DNA of 21,062 nt, taken from the IMG/VR virus record IMGVR_UViG_3300046675_000220, positions 1 through 21,062 of that record; one strand, written 5' to 3'. Shown in pieces: positions 2,421-19,304 of this stretch. Under the pieces are notes generated by a model, which saw only the letters and a program-made list of their open reading frames with translations, searched no databases and was not told the DNA's origin. Within the stretch, counting starts at the first letter, position 1; every line of letters starts with the position of its first letter. Both the position numbers and the translations under genes were made by a program. The DNA comes from a virus.

Positions 2421-3085
2421 GGCTTAACACTCTCGAACTTGACTTCTTTTGCTTCCCATCGGTTAAGGAGAATTTGACTAAAATCAAGATGATCTTCTAG
2501 AAATCGACAGCGGAAATAAAAGTGGAGGTCCATATTTATGGCAACATTCGCTCCTGGGGCACTAGTAAAGACGATATTGGTATTCGTATCATCCATGCTA
2601 TAGGTGCTCGGGTCTTGCGCTATGCCATTTAAGTAAACCGCCTCTATGGTATTAACCCCACCAACGGGCATAAACATAGGCGGAGCAAACGGGCCTGAGC
2701 CCCAATTCACAATAACGGGAAAAGACATTCGGTTTCCATCGCCAAGGCCAATCACCTGGTCGAGACGAGAGTTATCGTCGGGATCTTCGAAATAAAACTC
2801 CCCGTAAGAGCCTTTACAAAGAAGGAAGAGGCCTGAGATTTGCTCAAACTCCCGAAAGCCAAGTTGCGTATAATCTGGCACGGTATTCTGTGTCTGCTCT
2901 CTAAGCCAAGTATAAGTCAGGGTAAAGGCCCAGCGTGGAAATGCGGCACAGGCGAGTTGGGTTTCTCTTCCAGTTGCCCCGATCGTAACTCTCGATGCCA
3001 ATATGGGCTTCTTCTTAACACTCCAGCCGATAGAGGGAAGTGCGGGAAATACCGGAGTAGGAACAGGGTAGAAGATATATGACAT
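2417..3085 (-). CDS. DUF2460 distal tail protein (GTA gp12-like)
   Basis: 222 residues, close to the usual length of DUF2460 (TIGR02217) proteins. Family motifs in order: FPALPSIGWSVKKKPI at 13-28, a GRE step at 39-41, FPRWAFTLTYTWLRE at 49-63, FLLCKGSYGEFYFEDPDDN at 87-105, GLGDGNR at 113-119, VYLNG at 150-154, and CRFLEDHLDF at 193-202 with RW at 209-210. In the GTA this protein forms the distal tail ring at the end of the tail tube, to which the hub binds. The ATG lies within one arm of a conserved intergenic hairpin motif, and the likely ribosome site (TAGGG, six to seven bases before ATG) lies inside that motif, so folding could affect its translation. The neighbouring upstream gene ends in a divergent copy of the same domain. 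Confidence 0.88.
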   Translation of the reverse strand: MSYIFYPVPTPVFPALPSIGWSVKKKPILASRVTIGATGRETQLACAAFPRWAFTLTYTWLREQTQNTVPDYTQLGFREFEQISGLFLLCKGSYGEFYFEDPDDNSRLDQVIGLGDGNRMSFPVIVNWGSGPFAPPMFMPVGGVNTIEAVYLNGIAQDPSTYSMDDTNTNIVFTSAPGANVAINMDLHFYFRCRFLEDHLDFSQILLNRWEAKEVKFESVKP

Positions 3086-3103
3086 AGAAATTCCCTACCC
3101 CAT
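3079..3103. repeat. Intergenic hairpin motif, copy 4 (divergent, inverted orientation)
   Basis: On the plus strand the right arm CTACCCCAT (3095-3103) follows a seven-base loop and a degenerate left arm ATGACATAG. The stretch TAGAAATTCCCTACCCCA is identical to the minus-strand reading of the copy at 8625-8653, so this copy lies inverted relative to the other three. It overlaps the start codon and ribosome site of the DUF2460 gene. Pairing is weaker than in the capsid-gene copy because it includes one mismatch and wobble pairs. Confidence 0.65.
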
Positions 3104-3129
3104 CTCTCTATTGCTCGCTTCGCTCGCCA

Positions 3130-4962
3130 CTATTGACACCCAGGCCAATACACAGCCCGGAACTTAAGACTCGGAACGGTCCAACGGTTCTTGCTAAACT
3201 CTTCAAACTCTTGCTCATCTTCTACGAAGCGGCAGACATAATAATACCCAAAGGTCATCGTAATCGTGGCATTCGCCGCAGGTGGGGTGTGGAAGTTAAT
3301 GAAATTGCGACTAATACCATAGGTATTAGGATTAACGACATGGCCATTTATCTTCACATTAGTTACCGTCCCTATCATCCCAACCGGTTCGGCAGTGGCT
3401 ATACTTGCCTGTCCCCAAGTGCGAAACACAGTAAAGTCCTTCTGTGTCGAATCTCCAATACCAATTATCTGATCGGTTCTGCTATCGTCCCAAGGTGCAT
3501 CAAAGGCAAAGATACCCGTTTGACCATACATCATCAGCCAAGTCTGAACGAGACTTTGGTATTGCTGATAACCAACAAGATCGTCATATGGTATCTGGTT
3601 CTGCGTCTGATCCAATAGTTCTTCGAAAAGTATCTCTATATCCCAAAGAGGATAAAGTTGTTGCATCACGCGCATTTCACGAAGGGATTTAGTCGTACCT
3701 AGGGTTGTGTCCATAACGATGCTTAGTTTAATGGGGAAACCGATTGGCAATGGCGGGAATAATGGAATAGGGCCACAGGCAAGCTCGTCACCTGTTGTCA
3801 ATATGGCATCAAACCGATCAAATGAACTAATGGTGTCACTAAGACTAAAGATGGCATTTATGATAATGATAAAGTCATCATCGCTAGAGACGAAGTCATT
3901 GTATGCGACGAATTGTGTTTCAAATTCGTCAAATTCGTCACTAGAACTTGCTGTGTCACTAAGACTCGTATGATAACTAACGGCCCCAAAGACACTCAGA
4001 ACGTCTGCCGTAGTTACACTGTCACTAAGACTAAAGTTAGGGGCAAAGACACGAACGAAGCTATCGCTTGTTGCTGCGCTATCGGTTAGTGCTTCTGGAA
4101 AATCTCTCGCCGCAACACTAAAGGCGTCAGATGTTGCTACCGTGTCACTAAGGAGGAAAGAGCTTAGGACCGAACCCCAATGCTCAACCGCCACTTGCGT
4201 GACTTGAATGGGGGCATCAGCACTGTACCAATGTTCTAAGGCACTTTGCGTAACTTGAATAGGCGTAACGTCCCGGAACCACTCTTCAACGCTAACTTGT
4301 GTTACTTGAACCGGAACATTGGTTGTAAACCACTCCTCTACGGCAACTTGTGTTGCAATAGCATTAGTGGGGCTAGTTGTTCCTGATGTAAAGCCCGAGG
4401 TAAACCCACTCGGCACCGTGCCCGTGAATGCCGTGTCGCCGAAGTTGGCGGTGGCGACATTGCCGGTGCCGCCAAAACTCACAGCCGGATACAGCGGAAT
4501 GCCGTCGCCCAAGGTGCAAGCTACACCCCCGGCGCCTATCGCCGGATTTGCCGAAGCGGAACCGTTCCAATTCCCCGCCGCGCCTTTGCGAAACCAAGCC
4601 AGTCTGGCGCCCACATCGAACGCGATGCAAACCACGTCACCCGAAGTGAAGGAACCGATGTTGTTCCCGATGTTAGTCCCGTCGAGTAGGATGTTGCCGG
4701 TTGATGCAACTCCGCAGTTTCCCACAGCACCGGCAGTGGCAAAGCCGCTAGACAGGGTGGCGTTGATCGAGAATGCCCCGTATGTCGCCGTCGTGACTAC
4801 GGTGGTGGCAGTGACCTCCCAATAGAATTTGCCTGTGATCTGTTTGTCGATGGCACGAACGGTGCCAACCACGGCAGTGGTGGCTGTCGTAGTTAAATTG
4901 TTTGTCCCCGACAGCGTAATATTCGCTGACTTGTCGCTCGGGTTCCAGGTTGTATTAGCCAA
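3130..4962 (-). CDS. SPRY-like / repeat / DUF2460 fusion tail protein
   Basis: 610 residues in four parts. Residues 35-190 resemble a SPRY/B30.2 domain (FYWEV at 46-50, GDVVCIAFD at 108-116, WFRKG at 123-127, LYPAVSF at 157-163). Residues 204-263 hold three and a half 17-residue repeats of the TQVAVEEW type. Residues 269-386 hold six copies of a 20-22-residue unit built on LSDT...SDxF. Residues 395-610 are a divergent DUF2460 domain aligning with the next gene: FDAPWDDSRTDQIIGIGD and CRFVEDEQEF against FEDPDDNSRLDQVIGLGD and CRFLEDHLDF. The start is TTG, chosen because GGAG lies eight bases upstream. The DUF2460 half could dock on the tail tip while the SPRY and repeat parts project outward as a receptor-binding or spacer arm; this is inference. 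Domain calls for the C-terminus are strong and for SPRY moderate. Confidence 0.75.
   Translation of the reverse strand: MANTTWNPSDKSANITLSGTNNLTTTATTAVVGTVRAIDKQITGKFYWEVTATTVVTTATYGAFSINATLSSGFATAGAVGNCGVASTGNILLDGTNIGNNIGSFTSGDVVCIAFDVGARLAWFRKGAAGNWNGSASANPAIGAGGVACTLGDGIPLYPAVSFGGTGNVATANFGDTAFTGTVPSGFTSGFTSGTTSPTNAIATQVAVEEWFTTNVPVQVTQVSVEEWFRDVTPIQVTQSALEHWYSADAPIQVTQVAVEHWGSVLSSFLLSDTVATSDAFSVAARDFPEALTDSAATSDSFVRVFAPNFSLSDSVTTADVLSVFGAVSYHTSLSDTASSSDEFDEFETQFVAYNDFVSSDDDFIIIINAIFSLSDTISSFDRFDAILTTGDELACGPIPLFPPLPIGFPIKLSIVMDTTLGTTKSLREMRVMQQLYPLWDIEILFEELLDQTQNQIPYDDLVGYQQYQSLVQTWLMMYGQTGIFAFDAPWDDSRTDQIIGIGDSTQKDFTVFRTWGQASIATAEPVGMIGTVTNVKINGHVVNPNTYGISRNFINFHTPPAANATITMTFGYYYVCRFVEDEQEFEEFSKNRWTVPSLKFRAVYWPGCQ
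3805..4158 (-). repeat. Six in-frame LSD-type repeats, about 20-22 residues each
   Basis: The unit core is L-[ST]-D-[ST] followed by about five residues and [SA]-D-x-[FL]. The aspartates of the core recur at residues 273, 294, 314, 336, 356 and 376 of the fusion protein. Partial DNA conservation remains: GTCACTAAGACT recurs on the plus strand near 3836, 3955 and 4021. The spacing is slightly irregular and unit five (YNDF) is degenerate. Confidence 0.75.
4174..4353 (-). repeat. Three and a half in-frame 17-residue TQVAVE repeats
   Basis: Residues 204-263 of the fusion protein read as units beginning TQVAVEEWF, TQVSVEEWF, TQSALEHWY and TQVAVEHWG, each ending in P-[VI]-Q-V where complete, with an exact 17-residue period. 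This TQVxVE motif is seen in other phage virion proteins; its structural meaning is not known to me. Confidence 0.8.
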
Positions 4963-4990
4963 GAGCTAGGCTCCAGTTCACGGCTTCGCC

Positions 4991-6487
4991 CTAGCTTACC
5001 ACAAGAGGACCGACGGTAATGGCATCAACCGCACTGCCAACCCAGGCCGAACCGGTATTCGGGTCAACAACATCTGTGCGCCAAGCCCATTGCCAACCCG
5101 AGGTAGAGAGTGTCAACGTCGGCGTAGAGACAGTCGTTGTGCCCGATTTTGTCCTAACACTTGCCGTACGTGAACCTGCATCGGACTTAATCATATATCC
5201 TCTCGTCACAACGGCAAAGATAGTGCTTGGCACGGGGGTTAGGGTGCCAATAGTGTAGAAATCTGCATCATTAACGGTACTATCATAGACATAACTCGTT
5301 AGGCCGTCCTCTTGGGGTTCGCTAACCACATCACTGTTGTATAAGGGGGCAAGATTGATCGTTACTGCTTGGCAGTTGTTGGCTCCTGCCGTGCCGCCTG
5401 GATTGGACGCAGGCCACGAGGCATAAACCGGCGTCGTTAAGACGATACTTCCCGCCTGGTTTGCAACATTATAGGTTATTGAGGCGTCTTGGTTAATGCC
5501 GATCCAATAGCTCTGCCCGACGGTGATATAAGCTGGCGATGGAAACACAAACGCAACGGCTGTTGTTGTCGGGTTAGTAACTTGCGTCGATGTTGCCAAC
5601 AGGGTGCCAATACTACCGCCAGTGCCTACGGCAAACAACGCCACGGTAAAATGTCCAGTCCCACCGCCGCCAGACGCATCACATCGGATACTGCCGCTGA
5701 CAACATTGCCGCTTCTATTAGCAACGAATGGCATATAATGCGCCGAGTTTGCCGCCAGCGCCTGCCCAGCCGCAAGCGTTGTGCTAACGGCCTGCGAAGG
5801 TATAGTCCCCACTTGGCTAAACTGTGCGCTAGAGGTAGTAATGGGCATACGAGTATTGCACCGAATATCGCCCATCCAAGCTACGCTAGAGGCATCACTT
5901 CGCCAAAACAAATCATCAATGTTCTGGGTTGCCGCCCCAACGTTACAACCGACCTGAAGCTTGTTGGCATAGTTATTAGTAGACGTGGGGCGAGTATTCA
6001 AGCCGCCTAGTGCATGATCGTTGCTAGTATTACCATTCTTACGAACTGCCCAACTTCCAGTTGTGTTGTTAATCACAATTTCGATTTCGAACGTATACCA
6101 TGTGTTAATAACCGGAGATGCACCCGTATATGTATCTAGCACCGTGCCAACGGACGTTCCAGACGTCAGTAATATCGCACCATCTTGGCGAAAGACAACA
6201 GCACACTGACCTGTGGTTCCATCAAGTAATTGCAAATAGGTATATAAATTAGAGCCCGAAACTACTCCAGTTTGGCGAAACGCCACAACAAGATGATGCA
6301 CGGCATCATTAACGCCGCTACTCTTTGCCAAATATAACGCACCATTAGTGGAGTAAAGTGCTTGACTACCCGAAAACCTACCTGCCCCTAGGAGAAAACT
6401 GCCCGTGCTTCCACTGTCCCAGTAGCCGTTGACCGTATCGGCCGGAAGTGCATACAGATCAAATCCATCGCCAAATGACCAAGCCAC
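4991..6487 (-). CDS. Lectin-like virion protein, paralogue 2
   Basis: 498 residues from a GTG start at 6487-6485. I chose this start because GGGAGG lies nine bases upstream, the same layout as in the neighbouring paralogue, and because the protein then begins AWSFGDGFDLY against AYTFGDGFDLY. An upstream frame to 6649 exists but would overlap the previous gene and lacks similarity. Residues 1-210 resemble a concanavalin/LamG-type jelly roll (TWYTFEIEIVINNTTG, then IDDLFWRSD). A middle beta domain contains YITVGQSYWIGI. The last 110 residues (EDGLTSYVYDSTVNDADFY, KSDAGSRTASV, DPNTGSAW) closely match the paralogue. It probably belongs to the tail or capsid surface and may bind glycans; this is inference. 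The middle region differs most between the two copies. Confidence 0.8.
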   Translation of the reverse strand: MAWSFGDGFDLYALPADTVNGYWDSGSTGSFLLGAGRFSGSQALYSTNGALYLAKSSGVNDAVHHLVVAFRQTGVVSGSNLYTYLQLLDGTTGQCAVVFRQDGAILLTSGTSVGTVLDTYTGASPVINTWYTFEIEIVINNTTGSWAVRKNGNTSNDHALGGLNTRPTSTNNYANKLQVGCNVGAATQNIDDLFWRSDASSVAWMGDIRCNTRMPITTSSAQFSQVGTIPSQAVSTTLAAGQALAANSAHYMPFVANRSGNVVSGSIRCDASGGGGTGHFTVALFAVGTGGSIGTLLATSTQVTNPTTTAVAFVFPSPAYITVGQSYWIGINQDASITYNVANQAGSIVLTTPVYASWPASNPGGTAGANNCQAVTINLAPLYNSDVVSEPQEDGLTSYVYDSTVNDADFYTIGTLTPVPSTIFAVVTRGYMIKSDAGSRTASVRTKSGTTTVSTPTLTLSTSGWQWAWRTDVVDPNTGSAWVGSAVDAITVGPLVVS

Positions 6488-6506
6488 GCTTCGCATCCTC
6501 CCGTTA

Positions 6507-7985
6507 TTAGGTGACGATAATTGGCCCGATTTGGGCAAGCGCCACATTCGCCGCCGACCAAGCCAAGGTGGTATTCGGATCAACAGTATCAGTCCTATAT
6601 AGCCAAGTCCAGGTATTAGTTGAAAGAGAGGGATTTGGGCTTTGCACAACGGTCGAGCCTGACTTTAGCTGAACACTCACCGACCTTGACCCTGCATCTG
6701 TCTTCTGCACAAAGGCCCTTGTCGTCACGGCAACGGTTGAATTTGGCACACTAGCTATAGTCGAGATGTTGTATAGATCATTGTGCCCGGTGGTGTTATC
6801 GGTGACATAACTGTTGCCGGCGTCTTCCTGAAATTCCCCTACAAACGCAGCGTTAGGTGGCGAAGAGAGAGTTACCACAACTGCCGCAAATAAACCTGGT
6901 GAACCGCTAGTAAGCGAAGGGGGATTAGTTGATGGAAAAGACGCATAGGTAGTGGCGCCATTAAAATTAGCTGCTTGAGTAGGCGAGCAATTAAATGAAG
7001 TGTTACCACCTAGACATACAGCAATATAATAGGTATTTCCCCTAGTTACCGAAACAGGCGACGGGAATGTAAACGTAGCAATCCCCGTCCCTGGAGCTAC
7101 TAACGGAGTTGCCGATCCTAATGGAGTTCCCGGAGCACCAGCGTTGCTATTATCATAAATACTCGCCTTAAGGGTGGCTGCTGTGGCCGAAAAAAGCGAG
7201 ATCGTAGCTGAACCTATAGCACCAGTAAAAGACGCAACAAAGGCCGTATAATAGGCTGCATTAGTAACCGCGCCTACAGTCGTACTAAGCGTAGCAAGGG
7301 TTTGCGTGACGGGATTAGGGCTTTGTGTGAACTGAACACTAGCGTCAGTTGTTGGCATTCGCGTGTAGCAGCGAATATCCCCTAGCCATGTCCCGGTGCT
7401 AGCGCCCGATTGCCAAAACACATCATCGACATTGTGATTAACACTTGCATTTAAGCCAAGGGTTAGGCGATTGGCATAGGCATTGGCACTGTTTTGCGTA
7501 TCAAGACTAGTGGCGCTGAAGTCGTTGCTGACGTTACCGTTCTTCCGAACATTAAACACACCAGTTGTGTTATTGATCGAAATTTCAAACTCAAAGGCAT
7601 ACCAAGTATTTGCTGCCAGTACGGCACCAGTATAAGTAGCCAATGTCGTTCCAGTTGGACCACCAGACGTTAACACAATAGCACCGTCAGAACGAAAGAC
7701 GATAGAACATTGGGCCGTGGCTCCATCGGAGAGTTGCAAATAAACCCCTAGGGTTGTGCCACTTATTGTTGCCGTTTGCAAATAGGCCACAACAACATGA
7801 TGTACGGCATCATTGGCGCCACTATTCTTAACAAAGGTATTAGTCGTTCCCATGAATATAGCGCGGCTATTACTGAAGCGCCCAGCCACTAGCGAAGCAT
7901 TTGACGAACCACTGTCCCAAAAGCCAACAAAGGCATCGGCTATTGTGGTATAGAGATCAAATCCATCACCAAAGGTATAGGCCAC
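6507..7985 (-). CDS. Lectin-like virion protein, paralogue 1
   Basis: 492 residues from a GTG start with AGGGAG nine bases upstream, overlapping the TAG of the preceding gene. Layout: jelly-roll-like N-terminal domain (FGDGFDLY at 5-12, TWYAFEFEISINNTTG at 127-142, VDDVFWQSG at 186-194), a linker DIRCYTRMPTTDASVQF at 203-219, a middle beta domain (TRGNTYYIAVCL at 314-325), and a C-terminal domain (GNSYVTDNTTGHNDLYNI at 390-407, QKTDAGSRSVSVQLKSGS at 427-444, DPNTTLAW at 469-476). The C-terminal pattern occurs in other phage surface or fibre proteins. The gene ends ten bases before its paralogue begins, so the pair looks like a tandem duplication. No enzymatic motif is visible. Confidence 0.8.
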   Translation of the reverse strand: MAYTFGDGFDLYTTIADAFVGFWDSGSSNASLVAGRFSNSRAIFMGTTNTFVKNSGANDAVHHVVVAYLQTATISGTTLGVYLQLSDGATAQCSIVFRSDGAIVLTSGGPTGTTLATYTGAVLAANTWYAFEFEISINNTTGVFNVRKNGNVSNDFSATSLDTQNSANAYANRLTLGLNASVNHNVDDVFWQSGASTGTWLGDIRCYTRMPTTDASVQFTQSPNPVTQTLATLSTTVGAVTNAAYYTAFVASFTGAIGSATISLFSATAATLKASIYDNSNAGAPGTPLGSATPLVAPGTGIATFTFPSPVSVTRGNTYYIAVCLGGNTSFNCSPTQAANFNGATTYASFPSTNPPSLTSGSPGLFAAVVVTLSSPPNAAFVGEFQEDAGNSYVTDNTTGHNDLYNISTIASVPNSTVAVTTRAFVQKTDAGSRSVSVQLKSGSTVVQSPNPSLSTNTWTWLYRTDTVDPNTTLAWSAANVALAQIGPIIVT

Positions 7986-7998
7986 GGTTCGAGGCTCC

Positions 7999-8598: not shown

Positions 8599-8624
8599 CG
8601 GTTTGTCTTTCCTTTGGTTATGAG

Positions 8625-8653
8625 ATGTGGGGTAGGGAATTTCTACCGCACAT
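8625..8653. repeat. Intergenic hairpin motif, copy 3
   Basis: Arms TGTGGGGTAG (8626-8635) and CTACCGCACA (8643-8652) pair at nine of ten positions around the seven-base loop GGAATTT. It lies between the tape measure stop and the 199-residue gene, about 27 bases before that gene's ATG. No T-run follows on either strand, so it is not a standard intrinsic terminator. Confidence 0.75.
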
Positions 8654-8656
8654 ATC

Positions 8657-11600
8657 TTATGCTGGCCGCCACCCATTCCGCATCATATTACGAGCCTGTC
8701 CAAGCATTGCGCCCGAGTGAAGGCCCATCATGGTGGAGAATTCCCCTCGGCTCATTCCGCTTCCGCCTCTTCCAGGCCGGGCATTTATTGTCGGATTATA
8801 GTTCAAGTTGGCCATATTCGAGGTATTGCTGTCGCCACCGCCAGTTTGCCCCCTTGCTATCATCTGTTGGAGGCCACGGGAAATTGGTGCTGGTAATACC
8901 ATTTCTTGCGAATGCAAAATGGCCATTTGTGTCCCAACCCCACCTACGGTCATTCCGCCTGCGGCGGAGACAATACCACCCGAAGCATAGGTAAATCCGA
9001 GCGCACTGGGCTTCACATTCAGCGCAGCTAATAGCACATCCTCGGCAGTTGCTGCCGCAGTAATGGCACTAACTATGCTTGTTGTTGATGCAATTGCCGT
9101 TGCATCCATCGTAGCCCCGAGCGTTGCTATCGCACCACTAATTCCCGTCGTTGTTGCTGTGGCACCAGTTGTTATAGCCGTTACAACCGCCGTGTCACCT
9201 ACGGCACCACCAGCAGCTTGACCAACGGCACTTCCCGCTGCTGCTCCTGCGGTATTGCCAGCGATGCTACTAACGGCACTACTCATCCACTTTCCGAGCA
9301 TTTCGCCAATGGTATTACTCGCACCACCTGTTAGGGCATTTGCAAGTGTATGACTAAGTGCTTCCCCAATACTCTTAACGGCACTCTCGGCAACACTTTT
9401 CAGTAATTGCCCAACCGCCGCCCGCATTTGGCTACCTTGATCGCTAATTGTCTTAGAACTAAGCCCCGCTTTGATGATTTCCTTCTGCGGCGCAATGAGG
9501 GCATCGAACATCGTACTACCGAAGCTCTCAAAGGCACTGCCGAGTTTATCAAAAAAGTCAGTAAACGCAGCGGCCTGTTTATTCGCCGCGGCAACGGCAG
9601 CGTCTCCGGCTTTCTTATATAGAGCTTCCTCTTTGGTTTTCGAGTCGAGTATAATACTATTGATCTTATCTTGCGTTTCCTTATAGGACCTCGTCCCTGC
9701 CTCTTGGGTTGATTGAATCTCTTTAAGTTCGCTAATCTGATGCGCAGCAAAAGATTGTATCTGCGAAGCTTCAGCCAAGGCTGAACTTACCGTGCGTTGA
9801 TCCGCACCAGGGCCTTCTTTCTGGCCAGCATACTTAAACGTCCCTGCGGCCATAGAGGCGAGTTTCGTATTAACATCCAAAAGGCGGGCTTTATACTCGA
9901 AGTCCTTCGCCTCAGTGTCAATCTCCTGTATACGGGCCTTGTTTACTTCAACAACTTTCTCTCGTTCAGCATTAGATACTTGGGCCATCGTTGCCTTATG
10001 GGCAGCAACGAGTTGCTTTAGCTTTGCAATTTCTTCATCATAAATGGCAATTATCTTCTTCGAGTTTCCATCAGCCTCTGCAACACGCAGGCGTATGGCA
10101 GCAAGATAATCCGTTGTCTCCTGATGGCTCTTCGAACCACCAGGGGCACCAGCCAACATATTATTTAATGCAATCGTCTTCTGTGCAAGTTCCTCTCGGA
10201 CTTGCAATCTCGCCTTGGCCGTCAGCGTCTCATCCGCCAACGTCTTCTTCATTATCTCAATCTCAGCCCGGGCTTCATCCTCTCGCAGCTTCTTGACCTT
10301 GGCACTCCCTGCGGGTAATTGAGCCTCCCCCTCGCTTGCCTTCAAGGCCGCCTGTCGCATCTCCTCATGCATACGATCAACGGGCGTTATTGGCTCGGTC
10401 AATGGTGGAGGCTGAACTTTGCCAAACCGTGCACGCATCCGTGCGGCATCTTCGTCCTCTGGCACACCTGCGCGGCCTGGCCCTTTACCAGCCCTCTCTA
10501 GCATTATCCTAACGTGTTCGGGATAAGACTGGAATGGATTACTAAAAGCCGCGAGGAACGTCGAGCCAAGCATACCAATAGCGCCGACGAGAAGCATAAC
10601 CTCCGAATAGGCTTCCTTAAGGAAACCAACTAGGGTGATGATAACTGGACCCCAGTTTTCCATTGCCCTAATGCCATCGCCACGAATAGTCTCACCGAGA
10701 GACCGAATGGCAGTTGCCACCTCCTCAAGTGATTTAGCCGTCTTTTCAGTAAGCGTAACGCCCAACTTATCCGCAGCATCACCCTGGGCCTTTAGGCCGG
10801 CTTCGCCATTCTGCAACAAAGGTATTAGTTTCGCAAACTCCCTCCCGGCAATCTCCGTCATATTTGCAGATTTATTCGCCCCATCGGCATTTCGCACCCA
10901 AGCCTCGGCAAGTAGGGCAATGATCTTACCGACATCACCGCCTGTCTCTGCCAATTGTTTTTGCGAAATGCCAAGATTGGTATACGCCTCGGCGGCTTTC
11001 GACGCTGGGTCAGCAATAGCCGTGGAGAGCGTCTCCGCTACATGCCGAAGGGCACTGTCGGCCTCAGTTGCTGATAAGCCACTAATGCGTAAGGCGCCTT
11101 GGAGGCGAGAATAGGCGCCAATCCCCATCCCGGCGGCACTAGCAGCGGCCCTAGTTTCCGTTGCCCATTTCCCCAGGGCTTCGGCGCTATGGAAGAACGC
11201 CGCCGTGCCCATAACGGCGACTAGAGCGCCAAGGGATGTTACGAGACCAGCTACACCAAGCCCGGCATCTCTCGCCGCAGCTCCCATAGAGCTAATGAAT
11301 TGCCCTCGGTGACCACTGGCAAGAGAGTCGAACATGCCGACAATATGCCTCGACTCTCGCTGAAAGAACCCTGCAACACCAGCTTGTGCCTGACTCTCAG
11401 TCAACACCGTTGCAGTAGCACGGACCGCTCTGACTTGTTCACGATAAGCTTCGGTTGCTGCCCTAGCACCAGCAATCTCAATCTCAGATGCCGAAGCCCC
11501 GGCTCTTCCTGCTGCGGCCATAGCAGCGGCTACGGAGCTAATAACCGCCTTCTGTTGCTCCAATGCCTTTGTAAGCGCCTCGGCGCCAATGAATTGTGCC

Positions 11601-12709
11601 TCCTCAAACGAGGCTCCGCCAAGTGCCGCAGCAGCGGCGGCCTTTGCGGCATAGGCCGAAGGTGGATGAGCGGCAATAATCCCATGAGCACTTGCTGCTT
11701 CGCGGCGAGCACGGGCATCAAATGCACGGTTCTCTTCTTCAGCCTCGTGCCTTATTGCAGCAAGTCGAAGATCATGATTACGGTTAATATACTCAGCTTC
11801 AGCCCTACTTCTAGCTGCCGAAGCATCCATACCTTGGTTAATGTATTCTGCTTCTGCCCGCTGTCTGGCCCGAATAAGATCCAAGTTCCTATTGGCATAT
11901 TCCGCCTCGGCTCTAGCTTTCGCTGCCTCTGCGGTCATCCCGGCGTTAATGTATTCTGCCTCAGCCCGTTGCTTCGCAGCAATCAGATCGAGGTCTCTAT
12001 TTAGATATTCTGCCTCGGCCCTTTCTCTCGCCGCAGTTGCCGTCATCCCTTGGTTTATATATTCGGCTTCAGCCCGTTGTCTAGCCCTAATCAGTTCTAA
12101 GTCACGATTAGCGTATTCTGCCTCAGCCCGGGCTTTTGCCGCTTGGGCATCCATCCCTTGGTTTACATATTCCGCCTCAGCTCTTGCCTTTGCCGCAACC
12201 AAGTCCATATCACGATTGATATACTCGGCCTCTGTATGCGCCGCAGCAATAGCTGCATCTTCTTGGCGGCGTTGGGCCTCAACGGCCATATTCCGAAGGC
12301 GAATTTCCTCCCTAATCTTCTGCTCTCGACTTGGGCCAGAGGTATCGGGACGAATGAAACCTGGGGTTGGCGTCGATTGGGGTGGGGCTGGTGGATGTGG
12401 GCGAATGAAGCCGGGGGCAGCCATCTGCCTAGCAGTATTGGCCGCAACGGTGCCTTGGCGCTCTAATGCCTGTGTTACTTCATTTATTGCTGCGGTTTCG
12501 CCCTTTAGGGCACTTATCGTTGCTTGTGCCGCAGCAATGCCTTGCTGCATACTAAGCACAAGTTGTTGGCCCATCCGGCTGCTATCGGTGCCAATAGCAG
12601 TAATATTCGCCCGAAGAAGTTTGATTTGTTCTTCGAGTTCTTTTATTCTCGCCGCAGCAGCGGTAGAATTGGCCGTTATGTCGATATTGAGATGTGAACT
12701 ACCCGACAT
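8657..12709 (-). CDS. Tail tape measure protein
   Basis: 1350 residues, the longest gene here, placed directly after the tail chaperones as expected. It sets tail length and is thought to leave the tail during DNA entry. The start ATG has AGAGG seven bases upstream and overlaps the chaperone stop by 11 bases. An N-terminal coiled-coil (18-95) is followed by a Pro-rich linker with two PGFIRP copies (99-121), nine 18-residue repeats (164-325), hydrophobic segments at about 483-506 and 686-722, and a core typical of tape measures (RLQGALRISGLSATEADSAL near 535). The C-terminus is Ala/Gly-rich with ASGGIV and LHSQEMVLPAPISRGL near the end, as in many tape measures. No lytic transglycosylase or peptidase motif was seen. 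At about 1.5 angstrom per residue it implies a tail near 200 nm. Confidence 0.93.
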   Translation of the reverse strand: MSGSSHLNIDITANSTAAAARIKELEEQIKLLRANITAIGTDSSRMGQQLVLSMQQGIAAAQATISALKGETAAINEVTQALERQGTVAANTARQMAAPGFIRPHPPAPPQSTPTPGFIRPDTSGPSREQKIREEIRLRNMAVEAQRRQEDAAIAAAHTEAEYINRDMDLVAAKARAEAEYVNQGMDAQAAKARAEAEYANRDLELIRARQRAEAEYINQGMTATAARERAEAEYLNRDLDLIAAKQRAEAEYINAGMTAEAAKARAEAEYANRNLDLIRARQRAEAEYINQGMDASAARSRAEAEYINRNHDLRLAAIRHEAEEENRAFDARARREAASAHGIIAAHPPSAYAAKAAAAAALGGASFEEAQFIGAEALTKALEQQKAVISSVAAAMAAAGRAGASASEIEIAGARAATEAYREQVRAVRATATVLTESQAQAGVAGFFQRESRHIVGMFDSLASGHRGQFISSMGAAARDAGLGVAGLVTSLGALVAVMGTAAFFHSAEALGKWATETRAAASAAGMGIGAYSRLQGALRISGLSATEADSALRHVAETLSTAIADPASKAAEAYTNLGISQKQLAETGGDVGKIIALLAEAWVRNADGANKSANMTEIAGREFAKLIPLLQNGEAGLKAQGDAADKLGVTLTEKTAKSLEEVATAIRSLGETIRGDGIRAMENWGPVIITLVGFLKEAYSEVMLLVGAIGMLGSTFLAAFSNPFQSYPEHVRIMLERAGKGPGRAGVPEDEDAARMRARFGKVQPPPLTEPITPVDRMHEEMRQAALKASEGEAQLPAGSAKVKKLREDEARAEIEIMKKTLADETLTAKARLQVREELAQKTIALNNMLAGAPGGSKSHQETTDYLAAIRLRVAEADGNSKKIIAIYDEEIAKLKQLVAAHKATMAQVSNAEREKVVEVNKARIQEIDTEAKDFEYKARLLDVNTKLASMAAGTFKYAGQKEGPGADQRTVSSALAEASQIQSFAAHQISELKEIQSTQEAGTRSYKETQDKINSIILDSKTKEEALYKKAGDAAVAAANKQAAAFTDFFDKLGSAFESFGSTMFDALIAPQKEIIKAGLSSKTISDQGSQMRAAVGQLLKSVAESAVKSIGEALSHTLANALTGGASNTIGEMLGKWMSSAVSSIAGNTAGAAAGSAVGQAAGGAVGDTAVVTAITTGATATTTGISGAIATLGATMDATAIASTTSIVSAITAAATAEDVLLAALNVKPSALGFTYASGGIVSAAGGMTVGGVGTQMAILHSQEMVLPAPISRGLQQMIARGQTGGGDSNTSNMANLNYNPTINARPGRGGSGMSRGEFSTMMGLHSGAMLGQARNMMRNGWRPA
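11735..12220 (-). repeat. Nine exact 18-residue (54-base) repeats in tape measure protein
   Basis: Residues 164-325 of the tape measure form nine consecutive 18-residue units ending in AEAEY; the last is degenerate, ending in EAEE. Conserved Tyr falls at 181, 199, 217, 235, 253, 271, 289 and 307, preceded by Tyr163. Two unit types alternate: one starts with N-[RN]-x-x-[LI] and the next with N-[QA]-G-M, giving a 36-residue super-repeat. Eighteen residues equal five turns of alpha helix, so the acidic AEAEY patch would recur on one face. Confidence 0.92.
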
Positions 12710-13417: not shown

Positions 13418-13434
13418 GGTGTTTACCCCTTTTG

Positions 13435-14181: not shown

Positions 14182-14455
14182 TTACTCGTTCCTTTACTAA
14201 CAAGAGTTGCGTGTGGAGAGCAGTAGTGACGAACGACTTCGTTCCGCCGGGACATTTCAATTAGGTCGAAGCAGGGAACCAAATCGTCCTTCGAGGCAAG
14301 AGTGGCCCCAGGCGAAGACAGGAGTAGACAAAGAGCATTGAGGGGATCGACAACATTCGGCGTCTCAACTAGCTCCAACCAATCATGGACGAAGGCGACT
14401 TTATAGGTGCGGATAGATGGGTGGGGTAGGGAAACACTACCATGTATCTCTTCCT
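14182..14455. other. Leader stretch without convincing gene, before major tail gene
   Basis: This is the only long gap between the right edge and position 1. A minus-strand frame (14064-14459) crosses it, begins at an ATGA overlap with the terminator gene and runs 118 bases into the tail tube gene. It lacks a ribosome site and family resemblance, so I do not call it. The stretch contains hairpin motif copy 2 at 14421-14445 and an AAGGA-led 24-codon frame (14369-14443). It also holds a small inverted repeat, GAACG-ACTT-CGTTC, at 14231-14244. A promoter or RNA-level control element for the abundant tube protein is plausible but unproven. Confidence 0.5.
14421..14445. repeat. Intergenic hairpin motif, copy 2
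   Basis: Arms GTGGGGTAG and CTACCATGT flank the seven-base loop GGAAACA. Five inner pairs are perfect (GGTAG with CTACC); the outer arm has one mismatch and possible G-U pairs. It shares GGGGTAGGGAA with the copies at 8625 and 19271. It lies about 240 bases before the major tail protein start. Confidence 0.6.
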
Positions 14456-14914
14456 TCATGGCATTTCAACAATCAAAGGGACGATCAGCATCGTCTGATA
14501 ATCTATATCCCCTGGATCTTTAAATATCCGTCCCTGAATGTTAACTGAATATACCAGTCCACCTAGGGTATTATTATTTGTGCTAAAGTTATCAGCTGGG
14601 TTTAGTGCGGCTTCAAATGCTTCCATCATCGTATCTAATTGTGGGCCACCAGGCGTACTATCTGAACGACTATAACACCAAAGGCCCAAATCAAGCCTGC
14701 GGCGCAAAAGGCCAAGACCACGATATTCATCGGTTTCACGATGTGTCACCAAGAAACATGCCGGTTGTTGGTCAACTGGAACATCTCCCCACAGGCGAAG
14801 CCTGTTACTAACCGTGCGCCAAGTTAGGGCGCCGTTTATCGGAATGAGAAAGGTCATATTCTGTATGCTATTCAGTATCGCCACCATGACTTCATTACGT
14901 GTCACAATGGCCAT
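14456..14914 (-). CDS. Tail terminator / completion protein
   Basis: 152 residues. The profile fits phage tail terminators: N-terminal helix, then QQPACFLVTHRETDEYRGLG, LDLGLWCYSRSD, PQLDTMMEAFEAALNPADN, TLGGLVYSVNIQGRIFKDPG and a hydrophobic final strand MLIVPLIVEM. Proteins of this kind form a ring that caps the finished tail tube and joins it to the head connector. Its position directly after the HK97 gp10-like gene and before the tail tube gene agrees. The ATG lies three bases after the previous stop, with GAGG eight bases upstream. Confidence is good for the family and moderate for the exact ring role. Confidence 0.78.
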   Translation of the reverse strand: MAIVTRNEVMVAILNSIQNMTFLIPINGALTWRTVSNRLRLWGDVPVDQQPACFLVTHRETDEYRGLGLLRRRLDLGLWCYSRSDSTPGGPQLDTMMEAFEAALNPADNFSTNNNTLGGLVYSVNIQGRIFKDPGDIDYQTMLIVPLIVEMP

Positions 14915-14917
14915 AAT

Positions 14918-15397
14918 CTATTCCTCACCCTCTCCAGCGATCATCAATTGAACTAGGTCACTAAATTTCTCCGGAATTAGCGGCTCAACTTCCTCAGCCG
15001 CTAGGCGAAGATAGCCGAAGGCCCGAGAAGGTGGGTGGTTAACCGAATGTAGGTAGACTATCTGACCGACTTTTTCCCAATAGAACTTAAGTATTGTTGC
15101 CTTAGTTGGCACTATCGGGTAATACCCTTTGCCGCCAACCTCTAATGCCCAAGCCTTCGGGGATTCTGGTGACATATATACCGATGCGTTAATGACACCT
15201 CCGGACATTCTATCCCGCTGCTTACGCACGGTTTCAATTAGCTCGCCACTCTTCTGTTGAAGCACTCTACCCGATAGGTTCTCAATAACCTTATCGTACA
15301 ATAGATCTGTCAATTGGGTCATTTTGCGCGAAATAGCCCGTCTCATTCTTTCATCAAGGTCGTCTAAGTTCGTTGCCGTTATAGAAACTTCGAGCAT
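14918..15397 (-). CDS. HK97 gp10-like head-tail joining protein
   Basis: 159 residues. Helical N-terminus (LDERMRRAISRKMTQL), then KSGELIETVRKQRDR, a WALEVGGKGYYPIVP strand-turn and the C-terminal signature HPPSRAFGYLRLAAEEVEPLIP. That pattern is characteristic of the HK97 gp10 / neck completion family, whose members act at the head-tail interface or in tail completion. The ATG overlaps the TAA of the preceding gene by one base (TAATG), and there is no strong ribosome site, so translation is probably coupled. Confidence 0.82.
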   Translation of the reverse strand: MLEVSITATNLDDLDERMRRAISRKMTQLTDLLYDKVIENLSGRVLQQKSGELIETVRKQRDRMSGGVINASVYMSPESPKAWALEVGGKGYYPIVPTKATILKFYWEKVGQIVYLHSVNHPPSRAFGYLRLAAEEVEPLIPEKFSDLVQLMIAGEGEE

Positions 15398-15597
15398 TAT
15401 TTATATAACCTAGCCCGAACCGCACAATCTTTACTCTCTAGCAATTTGCGAAGAGCAACGGTGCGTTCGGGATTACGGGGCAACATATCAGCAATTAGAT
15501 TGGCGAGTTCCCCAAACGGCCTAGACACATCCTGAAGATCATGCGCTAGGTGCTCATAGGCGAAGAATTGCAATAGGGGTTCTTGGTCAGGTGTCAT
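15397..15597 (-). CDS. Small conserved phage protein (66 residues)
   Basis: I chose the ATG at 15597, which overlaps the TGA of the adaptor gene (ATGA); the longer in-frame reading from 15648 would lie inside that gene. The protein starts MTPDQEPLLQFFAYEHLAHD, continues with VSRPFGELANLI and ends with NPERTVALRKLLESKDCAVR. I recognise this as a small, widely conserved phage protein (EPLLxFFAYEHL and ERTVALRKLLExKD signatures) with no established function that I can state. It is helical and compact. Here it lies between two head-tail joining genes, so an assembly or accessory role is possible; this is inference. Confidence 0.82.
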   Translation of the reverse strand: MTPDQEPLLQFFAYEHLAHDLQDVSRPFGELANLIADMLPRNPERTVALRKLLESKDCAVRARLYK

Positions 15598-16472
15598 ATC
15601 GCATATGGACTCCCAAGTGGAGGAGGAAGTACGGAAACATATGGCCAAATCAGATCATTTACCTCTGGGGGCAGGGAGTTTGTGCTATTCCACGGCTGGC
15701 TACTATTCCCGCGCCAATAGCGAATTGTCTCCTGTCCGCCCAGAGATTTCATTATTTCACCAATCCTGCCCCGATAGGAATATCGCTCTGCTACCATCTG
15801 TATAACGGCCTCTTCTATAGCCGCAGGGACGAAGGAATATGATATTAGCACCTGAGCGCCAGCATCTGTCGCATCAAAGGTATAGAGGCCAGGAAGGCTA
15901 TCTACAGGCGATATGTATTCGCCCGGAACGCCACTTAGGACTTTCACCGAGGTCATAGGTGTGCCATCAGCGTAGGTAACACCATTATCCTTAGTCCATA
16001 GGCCAAGGCTTTGTAAGACGGTAATAGTATATGGTCCTGGATCAACAGGAATGGTCCAAGGTTCATTCGAGATTAAGTAGCCCGCTTGGTATGTGACACG
16101 AACATTCTGGGCACCATAATAATGGCCACTAATGATGTCTAGCACAACTGGATCACCGGGAAGTTGGCCCGACCAAGGCACAAAGCGATAGCCATAACCA
16201 GGGTTTGACGCAGGTATTGACACTAAGCCATTCATCACCGAGATAATGCTAGTAACGGGATAATCAGGAAGGACGATCTGTGCGTTACCGACACCATCAA
16301 AGATCCTTGTAATAGTCTGGCTATAGAGTGGACCACGATTTAACACGCTGCTAATAAGCCCAGACATAGACGTGACGAGCTGGCTAATAACTGGGCTCGG
16401 GAGAGTAGGAGCATTGCCCATCCAAGTGGTGACTCTCTCGGGGGTTGTTAGATCGCCATTTATTAAGGGCAT
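15594..16472 (-). CDS. Head-tail adaptor (HK97 gp6-like), enlarged
   Basis: 292 residues, longer than the usual 100-200. The N-terminus (DLTTPERVTTWMGN, then ISQLVTSMSGLISSVLNRGP) and DYPVTSIISVMNG near 73-85 follow the gp6-like adaptor pattern, which forms a ring under the portal. The C-terminal helix region FVPAAIEEAVIQMVAERYSY to GRIGEIMKSLGGQETIRY also matches. An inserted beta-rich stretch (about 110-215, including PGPYTITVLQSLGLWTKDNG) is not part of the standard adaptor and may be a decoration domain. The ATG overlaps the preceding TAA by one base, with GAGG seven bases upstream. Position between capsid genes and neck genes agrees. Confidence 0.8.
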   Translation of the reverse strand: MPLINGDLTTPERVTTWMGNAPTLPSPVISQLVTSMSGLISSVLNRGPLYSQTITRIFDGVGNAQIVLPDYPVTSIISVMNGLVSIPASNPGYGYRFVPWSGQLPGDPVVLDIISGHYYGAQNVRVTYQAGYLISNEPWTIPVDPGPYTITVLQSLGLWTKDNGVTYADGTPMTSVKVLSGVPGEYISPVDSLPGLYTFDATDAGAQVLISYSFVPAAIEEAVIQMVAERYSYRGRIGEIMKSLGGQETIRYWRGNSSQPWNSTNSLPPEVNDLIWPYVSVLPPPLGSPYAI

Positions 16473-16864
16473 TACTTGTCCTCAATTTCTTCCCGAAGGT
16501 TCTCTAATTCAATATCTTTCTTTTGTATGGCATCAGTCAAATTTGCGTTTTCATTCGTCAGTGCGGCAAGTTTGGCCTGAAGTGAGGCCATATCTGACCG
16601 CAGATTTTGAATTTCATTCCTCTGCGCCTCGGCGGTTATACTTAGTTCCGCTATGGCACTATCGCGAAGCGGGTCAGACTTCGGTAGATCTTCCGGCAGG
16701 CCCTTTGCATCGGCAATAGTAAAACCTGTTATAGCAAGTATGCGAGGGGCGAAGTGCTCCGGGGCACGAAAATAACACGTTCCATTTTCTGTCGTCACCT
16801 CCGGGTAGAACTCTTGGCGTTCGACCGATATACTACTTGTCCCATTTGGGAAGGCAAACCACAC
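16472..16864 (-). CDS. Coiled-coil protein of unknown function in head cluster
   Basis: 130 residues from a GTG start with AGGGAG eight bases upstream. The N-terminal half contains FYPEVTTENGTCYFRAPEHF then ILAITGF, a pattern seen in small proteins encoded between capsid and adaptor genes. Residues about 70-130 form a strong predicted coiled coil with regular Leu/Ile/Ala spacing (EAQRNEIQNLRSDMASLQAK, then ELENLREEIEDK). It may dimerise and act in head assembly or completion, but no function can be assigned from the sequence. Confidence 0.72.
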   Translation of the reverse strand: MWFAFPNGTSSISVERQEFYPEVTTENGTCYFRAPEHFAPRILAITGFTIADAKGLPEDLPKSDPLRDSAIAELSITAEAQRNEIQNLRSDMASLQAKLAALTNENANLTDAIQKKDIELENLREEIEDK

Positions 16865-16876
16865 GGCAGATGCTCC

Positions 16877-17338
16877 CTATGTTAGAAGTTCCTCAAACTC
16901 ACTCTCGGTTCCGACGAATGCCATATCGCCCTTTATAGCAATGCGCTTCTCCCCGGTTACGACAACAACCTTTCCACCTTTTGCCAACACCGAGCGAAGG
17001 TATTGACTAACCGGCGGCCTCTGCCAAGCATTGTCATGACCTGGATACGGGTAGACAAATAGTGTCTCCCTATCCGTTCCCCAAGGCCAGCCGAGAACGA
17101 CCTTGGTTATATCCGGGCGCATATTCTCGGGAAACGAAGGCACATCCATTCGCCTCTGAGAGTCTAGCCAGAGACAAACATAGTGGCGACAAGCATCCGG
17201 CCGATCTTCGTAGATCTGACACCCGATGCCAAAAAGTGTCTTTGCAAGGTGCTTACAAGGCTCTCCGAAAGCCTTATGCACATCCTTTACTTCAAAGACA
17301 ATGCAACACCCCGTGCAGTCCTGGCACATTCCGGCCAT
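16877..17338 (-). CDS. YkgJ-family cysteine-cluster (Zn/Fe-binding) protein
   Basis: 153 residues if started at the ATG at 17338, four bases after the preceding stop; a TTG at 17359 is an alternative. Neither has a strong ribosome site. From the ATG: MAGMCQDCTGCC gives the C-x2-C-x2-CC cluster, followed by CKHL, then GIGCQIYEDRPDACRHYVC. That is the full YkgJ signature (C-x2-C-x2-CC ... C-x2-L ... GCxIYxxRPxxCRxxxC) described as a zinc- or iron-chelating domain. The C-terminal half (GWPWGTDRETLFVYPYPGHD, then GKVVVVTGEKR) is specific to this protein. It is soluble. Its role among head genes is unknown; a metal-dependent assembly, modification or redox function would be speculation. Confidence 0.82.
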   Translation of the reverse strand: MAGMCQDCTGCCIVFEVKDVHKAFGEPCKHLAKTLFGIGCQIYEDRPDACRHYVCLWLDSQRRMDVPSFPENMRPDITKVVLGWPWGTDRETLFVYPYPGHDNAWQRPPVSQYLRSVLAKGGKVVVVTGEKRIAIKGDMAFVGTESEFEELLT

Positions 17339-17342
17339 AGTA

Positions 17343-17567
17343 TCACCAAAGGCCCACAATACCTGTTGCCGTAGTGCCGGTGGAATAAACCTTCGTCACA
17401 TGCACTGGGGAAATACCTATTCCCAATGTTAATGTAACTCCGATTTGTCCCCCGGCCATATCTACGGTAACAGTTCCTGCGGCTCCACAACAGAGGGCGC
17501 GAGTAGTATAGTTCAGCCCAAGAGTATTGCTTGGGACAATACCTTGGGCATAGCTATAGCTTTCCAT
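17343..17567 (-). CDS. Small virion protein resembling GTA head spike-base proteins
   Basis: 74 residues with an excellent ribosome site (AAGGAGG eight bases before ATG, overlapping the capsid stop), which argues for strong expression. The sequence has LNYTTRALCCGAAGTVTVDM, then a hydrophobic strand series and a C-terminus VTKVYSTGTTATGIVGLW. Small virion proteins of the RCAP_Rcc01079 type, which form the base of capsid spikes in the Rhodobacter GTA, share the GTGGxVTV ... LPVxVxxVxATGTTATxIxAL pattern. The match is from memory and not computed. Its position directly behind the major capsid gene fits a capsid decoration protein. Confidence 0.68.
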   Translation of the reverse strand: MESYSYAQGIVPSNTLGLNYTTRALCCGAAGTVTVDMAGGQIGVTLTLGIGISPVHVTKVYSTGTTATGIVGLW

Positions 17568-17582
17568 TCGGTGGTCCTCCTT

Positions 17583-19238
17583 TTAGAAGACCATCGAACC
17601 TGTTGCTGGGTTCTTATTGATAATGGCGGCAAAGGCCGGGGTGAAGTAGCAGGGGAAGACTTCATCGACGTAGACGCCATACTCATAGCGCCGAGAGCGC
17701 CACGGCCACTGGATTTGGTAGTAGTCCTGGCGAACCTTCGCTTCGAGCAAGTTAGCAACGCCCGAAAGTTCGTATGGGCTCTTATCCGACCAGAACAACA
17801 GACAGCCCGGTGGGATATAGGGATGAATTTCAATGTCGAGCGTGTTGTTGAAGAACTTATTCAAATAACTCGTAACACGACGACCAGCTACGATCCGGCC
17901 CGTTTCCTGATCTGCATCGAACCAGATGCGATAGCTATTGTTGGAACTGGCTTGGCCCAACATTGCGCCGAACGAGTCAAGAACATCCGCGGCAGAAATA
18001 AGGATGCGATCGAACCCAACCTTATACTGCTCATATGCAGCCCGAAGCACGGCATCAATCTCGGCGAAATTGCTACCGCCAATAGTCAATCCCGTGTTGC
18101 CTGCGGGCATAGTATAGATGATACTGCCACCGGGAGAGTAGGTGATGTTATTCGGCACAAGTGGATTTGTTGACATAAACTGGCCAGGAGATGGGCCAGT
18201 AACGGCACCAAAGACTTGGGTCAATATCCCATCAGGGACGAGTTGATCCACGCTATTGTCAACAAACGACGAACTGACCTTCAAGTTAGCAACAGGTTGG
18301 TTGGTTGCCGCAGGCACTTTCGTGAAGATAGCCTGATTTGTCGGCGTAATTCCAGCGAGATACTCTGTGCCTGTTACCGTTCCAACATACCATGCATAGG
18401 CAAATGCGCCGGAGACGAGGGCAACTGTTGCCGTGACGACATTACCCGCAGTAACGGTGCCAATTGTTGCCTCTGCACTCGGCTGAGCACTTCCGCCACC
18501 ATAAGTATCCGTGCTGGCATCGGCATTGACTTTCGTCACCTGCCCAACAATGCCACCAGTATTTGTAGCACTCACGAAGGGCGAATACGCCAATTGCCCC
18601 ATGCCAGTCAATGCCACACAGACGACGAAGATAGCACCACCGGCAAACGTGCCACTATAGCCCGTCAGGGTGCTCTGTGTCAATGTGGGTGTTGGAGTAG
18701 TACCGAGCGGAAGACTCGCATCACCATTGATGAGGATCTTCTCTTCATCAATCATTAGCGAGCGAAGCGAGGACTGAACGCTAATTCCGAGGGCCTCTGG
18801 CGAAAGGTTCCGTGCACCAAGTCTGGCTTCAAACGTAACGCTCGACTCAAAGCCAAGGGTCTTATACGCCGCCACGAGGTCTTGCTCGGCAATAGCAATA
18901 CGTGCGCCACGATTTCCTTCGCTAACGCCAGAACTGGCACCATTCACATTAACGCCCGTAATCCTTTTCCAATGAAAGGCATTACCACCGTCGGCAGAGA
19001 CACGAGGAAGACGAGAAATGCGGGGAATGAGTTCCCGATACGGGTAAAGCATCTGAACAATAGGCCGGAGGTCATACCAAAGCAAATTGGTTGCCTGTTG
19101 GATAGTATCGGCCTTCTGTAGCGGGCCAAGCCTCTTCTCGAGGTTCTTGACGAAATTCTCATTGTTCAAAAGGGCATTGACAAACTCATTGCCAATACCA
19201 TTGTTTCCCGTGAACCCTACCTGTTGCAAGCCGTCCAT
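17583..19238 (-). CDS. Major capsid protein (HK97 fold) with inserted domain
   Basis: 551 residues, with AAGGTGG seven bases before the ATG. Residues 50-175 (LLWYDLRPIVQMLYPYREL, then FHWKRITGVN and SLRSLMIDEEKILINGD) and 385-545 (SNFAEIDAVLRAAYEQY, FDRILISAADVL, EIHPYIPPGCLLFWSDKSPY, RRYEYGVYVDEVFPCYFTP) follow the HK97-like capsid pattern seen in many phages. Residues about 180-330 are an insertion rich in Thr/Gly/Ala with two immunoglobulin/fibronectin-like stretches (TVTAGNVVTATVALVSGAFA at 261-280). This probably forms a domain exposed on the capsid. The gene follows the protease/scaffold fusion and precedes a small decoration-type gene. A conserved hairpin lies in its leader. Confidence 0.9.
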   Translation of the reverse strand: MDGLQQVGFTGNNGIGNEFVNALLNNENFVKNLEKRLGPLQKADTIQQATNLLWYDLRPIVQMLYPYRELIPRISRLPRVSADGGNAFHWKRITGVNVNGASSGVSEGNRGARIAIAEQDLVAAYKTLGFESSVTFEARLGARNLSPEALGISVQSSLRSLMIDEEKILINGDASLPLGTTPTPTLTQSTLTGYSGTFAGGAIFVVCVALTGMGQLAYSPFVSATNTGGIVGQVTKVNADASTDTYGGGSAQPSAEATIGTVTAGNVVTATVALVSGAFAYAWYVGTVTGTEYLAGITPTNQAIFTKVPAATNQPVANLKVSSSFVDNSVDQLVPDGILTQVFGAVTGPSPGQFMSTNPLVPNNITYSPGGSIIYTMPAGNTGLTIGGSNFAEIDAVLRAAYEQYKVGFDRILISAADVLDSFGAMLGQASSNNSYRIWFDADQETGRIVAGRRVTSYLNKFFNNTLDIEIHPYIPPGCLLFWSDKSPYELSGVANLLEAKVRQDYYQIQWPWRSRRYEYGVYVDEVFPCYFTPAFAAIINKNPATGSMVF

Positions 19239-19270
19239 TTGTTCGCCACCTTTTACTAGAAGTTAGAGGA

Positions 19271-19295
19271 ATGGGGTAGGGAATTGCTACCCCAT
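19271..19295. repeat. Intergenic hairpin motif, copy 1 (perfect)
   Basis: ATGGGGTAG and CTACCCCAT are perfect nine-base arms around the seven-base loop GGAATTG. It lies in the 66-base gap before the capsid gene, ending 33 bases upstream of the ATG. No T-run follows on either strand. The same motif recurs at 14421, 8625 and 3079, always at gene junctions. Confidence 0.85.
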
Positions 19296-19304
19296 ATACC
19301 TATA

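Follow-up and report, generated by a model that had tools for sequence, protein, structure and literature searches.

Each of the hairpin-like repeats found at gene junctions of this viral DNA forms the middle part of a longer DNA palindrome of 37 bp, and palindromes of the same family recur at gene junctions all along the genome of the phage. The element is very probably a protein site on double-stranded DNA. On the basis of sequence comparisons, we predict that its binder is the phage's own fusion of a ParB_N domain, a helix-turn-helix (HTH) and an N6_N4 DNA methyltransferase, which we consider the probable candidate. Our starting point was a fragment from IMG/VR, called the window below, by which we mean the whole analysed stretch of 21,062 nucleotides.

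Repeat analysis revealed that the inner hairpin-like copies extend outward into a unit of 37 bp with the formula AGRTATATGGGGTAG-N7-CTACCCCATATAYCT, such that every element comprises two inverted copies of a half-site of 15-18 bp. The four copies of the window, at junctions labelled J3 to J6, and the genes beside them are as follows.

19305..21062, minus strand, gene upstream of the J6 site; it runs off the window and is 714-739 aa long in the composite genome described below
19265..19301, no strand, 37-bp palindromic site of junction J6, flanked by the gene that ends at 19305 and by the capsid-like gene 17583-19238
17583..19238, minus strand, 551-aa capsid-like gene on the downstream side of the J6 site; its product weakly matches proteins annotated as major capsid
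14456..14914, minus strand, gene upstream of the J5 site
14415..14451, no strand, 37-bp palindromic site of junction J5, with one arm degenerate
8657..12709, minus strand, tape-measure-like gene upstream of the J4 site
8621..8657, no strand, 37-bp palindromic site of junction J4, immediately following the tape-measure stop codon
7999..8598, minus strand, 199-aa gene downstream of the J4 site
3130..4962, minus strand, gene upstream of the J3 site, its stop 25 nt before the inner 27-mer
3073..3109, no strand, 37-bp palindromic site of junction J3, overlapping the called start of gene 2417-3085
2417..3085, minus strand, 222-aa gene on the downstream side of the J3 site

The first-pass annotation of this DNA described a hairpin with a 7-base loop and arms of about nine bases at 19271-19295, 14421-14445, 8625-8653 and 3079-3103. 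Copies are indeed present at all four positions, each of them being the centre of one of the palindromes listed above rather than a complete unit. The arms correspond to the description in two cases: they are perfect (9+9) at 19271-19295 and reach 11 bp with one mismatch at 8625-8653. The 14421 copy forms a stem of only 5 bp when folded as the sense transcript (z -1.0), and at 3079 Watson-Crick pairing is limited to 6 of 9 pairs and CTACC is absent. The orientation assigned to the copies, three one way and that at 3079 inverted, tells only which arm is more degenerate and means little, since the element is near-palindromic.

Each of the four copies contains one TGGGGTAGGGAA block, and the window has no others. 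A family restricted to this block proved too narrow, the GGAA of the loop not being conserved, and a symmetric GGGGTAG-N9-CTACCCC pattern was likewise discarded, having the wrong spacing and a window count no better than chance. Scanning genome contigs with ATGNGGTAG-N7-CTACCNCAT returned at least 119 matches, mostly unrelated hairpins, which is roughly the number that chance alone would yield when 16 bases are fixed and 257 billion are scanned. The palindrome family itself is not a product of chance: its 12 copies in the composite genome score 34.9-50.9 bits, against a maximum of 5.3 in shuffled sequence, and an unbiased search for dispersed palindromes recovered the family in six phages and found none in shuffled sequence. 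At the strict setting this search missed the known families of G009, G011 and G012, all three of which were recovered at looser settings.

The composite genome was built from overlapping contigs of three metagenomes. Contig L001 joins the window at its right end (100%) and L011 at its left end (99.8%), while L015 and G008 extend the composite further; the direct overlap of the window with G008 is short (67 bp, 91%), but L001 links the two, with matches of 100% to the window and 99.9% to G008. The resulting length, ~61 kb, is close to that of G009 (61.7 kb) and of Brevundimonas phage relatives (~62 kb). The 12 copies amount to roughly one per 5 kb, and every one of them falls at a gene junction, in one case with partial overlap of a called start, so that the chance-like scatter through unrelated coding regions, which the first-pass annotation had named as evidence against its proposal, was not found. 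The neighbours of the sites include late genes, replication genes, the ParB-methyltransferase gene and the convergent junction behind the DUF3987 gene. A late-promoter role, as first suggested, is improbable as a general account, given that copies are spread over the whole genome, this convergent junction and mid-operon positions after stop codons included.

Within the junctions, the sites occupy a slot that leaves the ribosome site free, starting a median of 4 nt past the stop codon and ending a median of 25 nt ahead of the next start, as placed by a simple gene caller. The translational effect proposed for the copy at 3079 is possible there and is not a conserved property, since the relatives have the start of this gene ~20 nt past the site. 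The sites are also more even in spacing than chance would have them. Median spacing is ~5.1 kb in the composite and ~6.5 kb in G009; the coefficient of variation is 0.38 in the composite versus ~0.88-0.89 for random placement (p=0.001, and p=0.0018 under a junction-limited null) and 0.46 in G009 versus ~0.88 (p=0.008), the tests on the two phages not being independent because the junctions are common to both.

Related phages, gathered by using the capsid-like, portal and DUF3987 proteins as queries and mostly 55-85% identical in shared proteins, keep the element at the same junctions, among them the one that follows the tape-measure gene, those that precede the capsid-like and the ParB-methyltransferase genes, and the one behind the DUF3987 gene. 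Hence the loss from these junctions in relatives that would have spoken against a conserved element was not observed either. G009 has 12 copies and partial records have 1-6. As for the window sites, junction J6 is also occupied in L002, L063, L189 and L190, J5 in G009, G011, G012 and L188-L191, and J3 in G009, G010, G011 and G013, while J4 has a counterpart in the same region of G009, G011, G012 and G013. The family is absent from the partial records G014, L192, L193, L197 and L200 despite shared structural genes, and the ParB-methyltransferase was not detected in these partial records. No such palindromes were present in the 49 kb examined of the Brevundimonas phage Polewnik, whose capsid-like protein is 34% identical.

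The outer arms, AGRYATAT...ATATRYCT, are common to the phages, whereas the inner core is phage-specific and uniform inside each phage. The core is GGTAG in the composite, L002, L003, L063, L190, L204 and L209; RAGGGT in G009, G013 and L191, with a similar one in L188; ATACAGT in most copies of G010-G012; and GGTGAAAC in L189. Cores at different junctions of one phage agree at 15.2 of 20 positions, against 10.0 of 20 for one junction in different phages. Such concerted, phage-specific change of the core points to a trans-acting, phage-specific factor.

Whether the element acts as DNA or RNA can be judged from its mismatches, keeping in mind that an RNA stem tolerates G-U and not A-C. On the transcribed strand, with the sense assigned by hand from flanking homologues, there are 55 G-U and 61 A-C mismatches, i.e. 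no wobble excess. Covariation of the arms, which the first-pass annotation had recommended as a check, is missing as well: of 18 positions, 12.81 are alike in the two arms of a copy, compared with 13.08 once arms have been permuted between the copies of a phage (p=0.92). This lack of compensation disfavours a cruciform and implies that the half-sites are independent, as expected for a protein dimer on double-stranded DNA; together with the genome-wide concerted change of the core, it argues for a phage-specific dimeric DNA-binding protein. We therefore hold with considerable confidence that the element is a double-stranded DNA site for a protein, and of the roles first envisaged for the repeat, that of an operator-like site is the one supported. 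Intercistronic RNA hairpins acting in processing or stability, like the RNase III sites of T7, would accord with the good folding of two window copies as RNA (z -3.8 and -5.5) and with the start of the sites so close behind stop codons. However, G-U is not preferred over A-C, pairing within copies is not compensatory, the 14421 copy barely folds and the palindromes of several relatives reach the central base, all of which contradicts the processing or stability role suggested previously and makes it highly improbable. As for the U-tract of an intrinsic terminator, no T-run is present on the gene strand in the flanks of the four window copies, just as the first-pass annotation had observed. It is equally hard to believe that the element is a functionless mobile or gene-converted palindromic repeat homogenised within each genome. 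Homogeneity inside a phage and difference between phages would fit such a repeat, but the same junctions are kept across phages, the spacing is even, the outer arms are conserved while loop and flanks vary, and no transposase was recognised.

The candidate binder is encoded in the part of the composite contributed by L015:

L015:2962-4434 (composite), gene for a ParB_N - helix-turn-helix - N6_N4 DNA methyltransferase fusion

Both named domains are above the Pfam cut-offs (ParB_N, PF02195, E 6.6e-12; N6_N4_Mtase, PF01555, E 3.1e-10), with the HTH sitting between them, and the C-terminal methyltransferase is related to CcrM and DpnA. The GERR and ENxxR motifs known as CTPase motifs are present and conserved in close relatives; they are not proof of CTP binding, and some ParB-fold methyltransferase fusions bind ATP (PMC12704722). 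An AlphaFold model is confident over approximately residues 6-172, which match crystal structures of Noc, ParB and KorB; the predicted HTH has a pLDDT of ~80 and a ParB match, and the methyltransferase half is modelled poorly. In sequence, this half is ~67-80% identical between phages. Viral contigs contain 218 relatives of the fusion.

Two further observations connect the fusion to the palindromes. In six of the six phages in which both are visible, the ParB-methyltransferase start is preceded by a site at a distance of 54-265 nt, and there is no site directly upstream of the gene in L233, L214 and L234. Moreover, the type of the recognition helix tracks the type of the core, albeit over three core types and few independent examples. 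With the GGTAG core, the recognition segment is SIHHSYLR in the composite and SLHHSYLR in L209 (7/8 identical), two phages that are 60-76% identical in six other shared proteins and are more alike also elsewhere in the HTH region. With RAGGGT, it is SLHVTHVR in G009 and SIHQTHLH in G013 (H-x-T-H), and with ATACAGT it is ALSQ[VA]QFH in G010 and G011. The helix of L234 reads SLHHSHVR, and a recognisable site with one GGTAG half was found in this phage after the pattern had been noticed.

A Pfam search of 59 composite proteins recognised no other sequence-specific regulator apart from the small terminase, and no integrase, repressor family or ParA-type family; several small proteins are without a family match. 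The small terminase subunit is a weak alternative and was set aside: phages that differ in their cores have similar HTH regions in this protein, and the protein is present also where the site is lacking. Among eight more distant phages with a ParB-methyltransferase, plausible families of dispersed palindromes were seen only in two (G016 and G025) and no convincing family in G015, G017, G022-G024 and G026. Such sites are therefore not a general feature of the fusion, and the idea of dispersed palindromes common to all phages that carry it was dropped. As for cultured relatives, no ParB-methyltransferase homologue covering >45% of the query was found in 50,697 phage records, and Polewnik was not matched.

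Several known systems resemble the one proposed here. KorB of plasmid RK2, a ParB-family CTPase that acts as a CTP-dependent clamp together with KorA, shares ParB_N and HTH with the phage protein (profile match 8qa8, E 1.7e-5; fold match 8qa9), and in both cases palindromic sites are dispersed over the replicon, in the phage 12 over ~61 kb. RK2 has ~12 OB sites on 60 kb, which is similar in number and density. The differences are that the C-terminal part of the phage protein is a DNA methyltransferase, that the phage palindrome is 37 bp long and that the clamp role of the phage protein is a prediction. In its CTP-bound form, KorB slides along the DNA from OB and silences promoters at distances of up to 1.5 kb (PMC11790492). 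ParB-parS systems, including Noc, have in common with the phage the ParB-CTPase fold, an adjacent HTH and multicopy palindromic sites. However, the phage has a methyltransferase fusion, no recognised ParA gene and no ParB C-terminal dimer domain, and its sites are evenly spread instead of clustered; without ParA and the ParB C-terminal domain, it is not a parABS system. The closest proteins in domain content are fusions of the ParB-CTPase fold with a PF01555 methyltransferase in one chain. They are reported (PMC12704722, PNAS 2025) to be commoner in phages, enriched in prophage regions and of unknown role, perhaps anti-defence; what differs here is that target sites and a helix-to-site match are proposed, for one clade. 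No report of target sites for ParB-fold/N6_N4-methyltransferase fusions was found in searches of an open-access library.

Stoperators of Cluster A mycobacteriophages are likewise dispersed and intergenic, with a consensus that varies from phage to phage in correlation with the cognate DNA-binding protein (PMC6550527), but unlike a 37-bp palindrome they are short and asymmetric, follow for the most part the direction of transcription and are the targets of a lysogeny repressor. The SPBRE of SP-beta is a repeated intergenic element bound by the phage-encoded regulator MrpR (PMC10516654), and a phage-encoded binder is predicted here too. Nevertheless, SPBRE is a 15-bp motif at promoters, whereas the present sites are mostly mid-operon after stop codons, and MrpR is tyrosine-recombinase-like, while Pfam recognised no such protein in the composite.

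These parallels bear on what the sites might do. A different phage regulator that escaped recognition, such as a lysogeny repressor, could use them as operators or stoperator-like roadblocks, with the ParB-methyltransferase being unrelated. Dispersed intergenic sites with a phage-specific consensus are typical of stoperators (PMC6550527), and the regulator may hide among the small composite proteins without a family match. We nevertheless consider this unlikely, given that neither an integrase nor a repressor family was recognised by Pfam, that the sites are long palindromes and not short, asymmetric and oriented, and that the ParB recognition helix tracks the core. For the ParB-type fusion as the binder, the steps from binding onward, that is, site binding, clamp formation and the role at the sites, are what we infer by analogy. 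The fusion protein would dimerise on the 37-bp palindrome and load there as a nucleotide-dependent clamp, as in ParB/parS and KorB/OB; the clamp may then slide off the site, patrol the adjacent phage DNA and carry methylation and/or transcriptional silencing along the phage's own genome.

It is tempting, if still doubtful, to suppose that the role is KorB-like, the sliding clamp silencing or terminating transcription over kilobases and the methyltransferase working at other places or serving only for dimerisation. In function, the nearest analogue is KorB, with its dispersed sites and long-range silencing (PMC11790492), and intergenic phage sites lie all along the operons, one of them ahead of the protein's own gene. 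Against such a role stands the well-conserved methyltransferase half, which suggests that its activity matters. Self-methylation, in which the clamp would load only at the phage-specific palindromes and methylate its own genome and little else, is a speculative option to which we give rather modest odds. Sliding from each site would then cover the 5-6 kb to the next, and with sites and recognition helix diverging together, each phage would mark only itself.

Fusions of the ParB fold and N6_N4 methyltransferases enriched in phages are known already (PMC12704722), and so are dispersed regulator sites in other phages. What we propose as new, on sequence grounds, are concrete DNA target sites for one clade of these fusions. 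From the point of view of analysis, the case indicates that wobble and compensation compared across relatives can reclassify an apparent RNA hairpin as a DNA site. If the fusion is the binder, the ParB-fold/methyltransferase class would gain its first predicted target sites, and the pairing of helix type with core type would give specificity predictions for one clade of fusions. If the proposed scenario is true, the even spacing of the sites would be explained, and DNA clamps of the ParB/KorB style would be linked to phage DNA modification and self-recognition.

Two distant phages that carry a ParB-methyltransferase (a ParB_N, helix-turn-helix and N6_N4_Mtase fusion), G016 and G025, have dispersed palindrome families of their own, CCATGTTTGTYGCAACAAACATGG and GCCCACATATGTAATTACATACGTGTGG, respectively. 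These are possible counterparts of the 37-bp site. In the relative L004, a diverged palindrome, AGATGGATACGTTTCTCGCCATGCAACGTATCCACCT, lies immediately past the homologue of window gene 14456-14914, and it possibly represents one more type of core for the J5 site, which adjoins that gene. The copies are as follows:

G016 palindrome: L230:1967, L230:17106, L231:11668, L231:18895
G025 palindrome: 1345, 18390, 42656, 52408
L004 palindrome: L004:8180-8216

A hairpin different from the 37-bp site, AGAATATGGGGTAGGCAAAACCTACCCCATTTCT, was repeated across a dozen viral contigs (L028, L029, L032, L043, L044, L052, L054, L055, L058, L061, L062 and L065). A further sequence, TATGGGGTAGAAATAGTCTACCCCATA, is kept in many marine alphaproteobacterial genomes (L076, L078, L080, L085, L088 and numerous further alphaproteobacterial loci in the scanned contig collection, genome_contigs); it is flanked by a T-run and is probably an intrinsic terminator.

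Within window 4991-7985, the genes 4991-6649 and 6507-7985 look like a tandem duplication; repeats there lie about 1504 bp apart, and both genes match phrog_2448. The tape-measure-like gene contains tandem 54-bp (18-residue) repeats at 11782-12196. Outside the window, two neighbouring, secreted-looking proteins of the same phage (genes L025:10430-11173 and L025:11213-11860) have PEP-CTERM sorting signals at their C-terminal ends, with Pfam PF07589 matched in two members. Such signals are not expected in a phage and suggest that the host has an exosortase system.

In its leader, the ParB-methyltransferase gene has a compact RNA motif, NGACCYGGGCATGTCN-NN-AAAA-GGCCCA, which also precedes unrelated phage genes:

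L015:2718-2747 and L015:2845-2874, two copies in the window's phage
L234:4113, L233:1875 and L214:1197, further copies
L339-L357, 19 other viral loci

The motif is probably an H-type pseudoknot. Its stem is GAC/GTC, the first pair co-varying in many copies, and the GGGC loop could pair with GCCC. The motif had no match in Rfam and may represent a small RNA class so far unrecognised.
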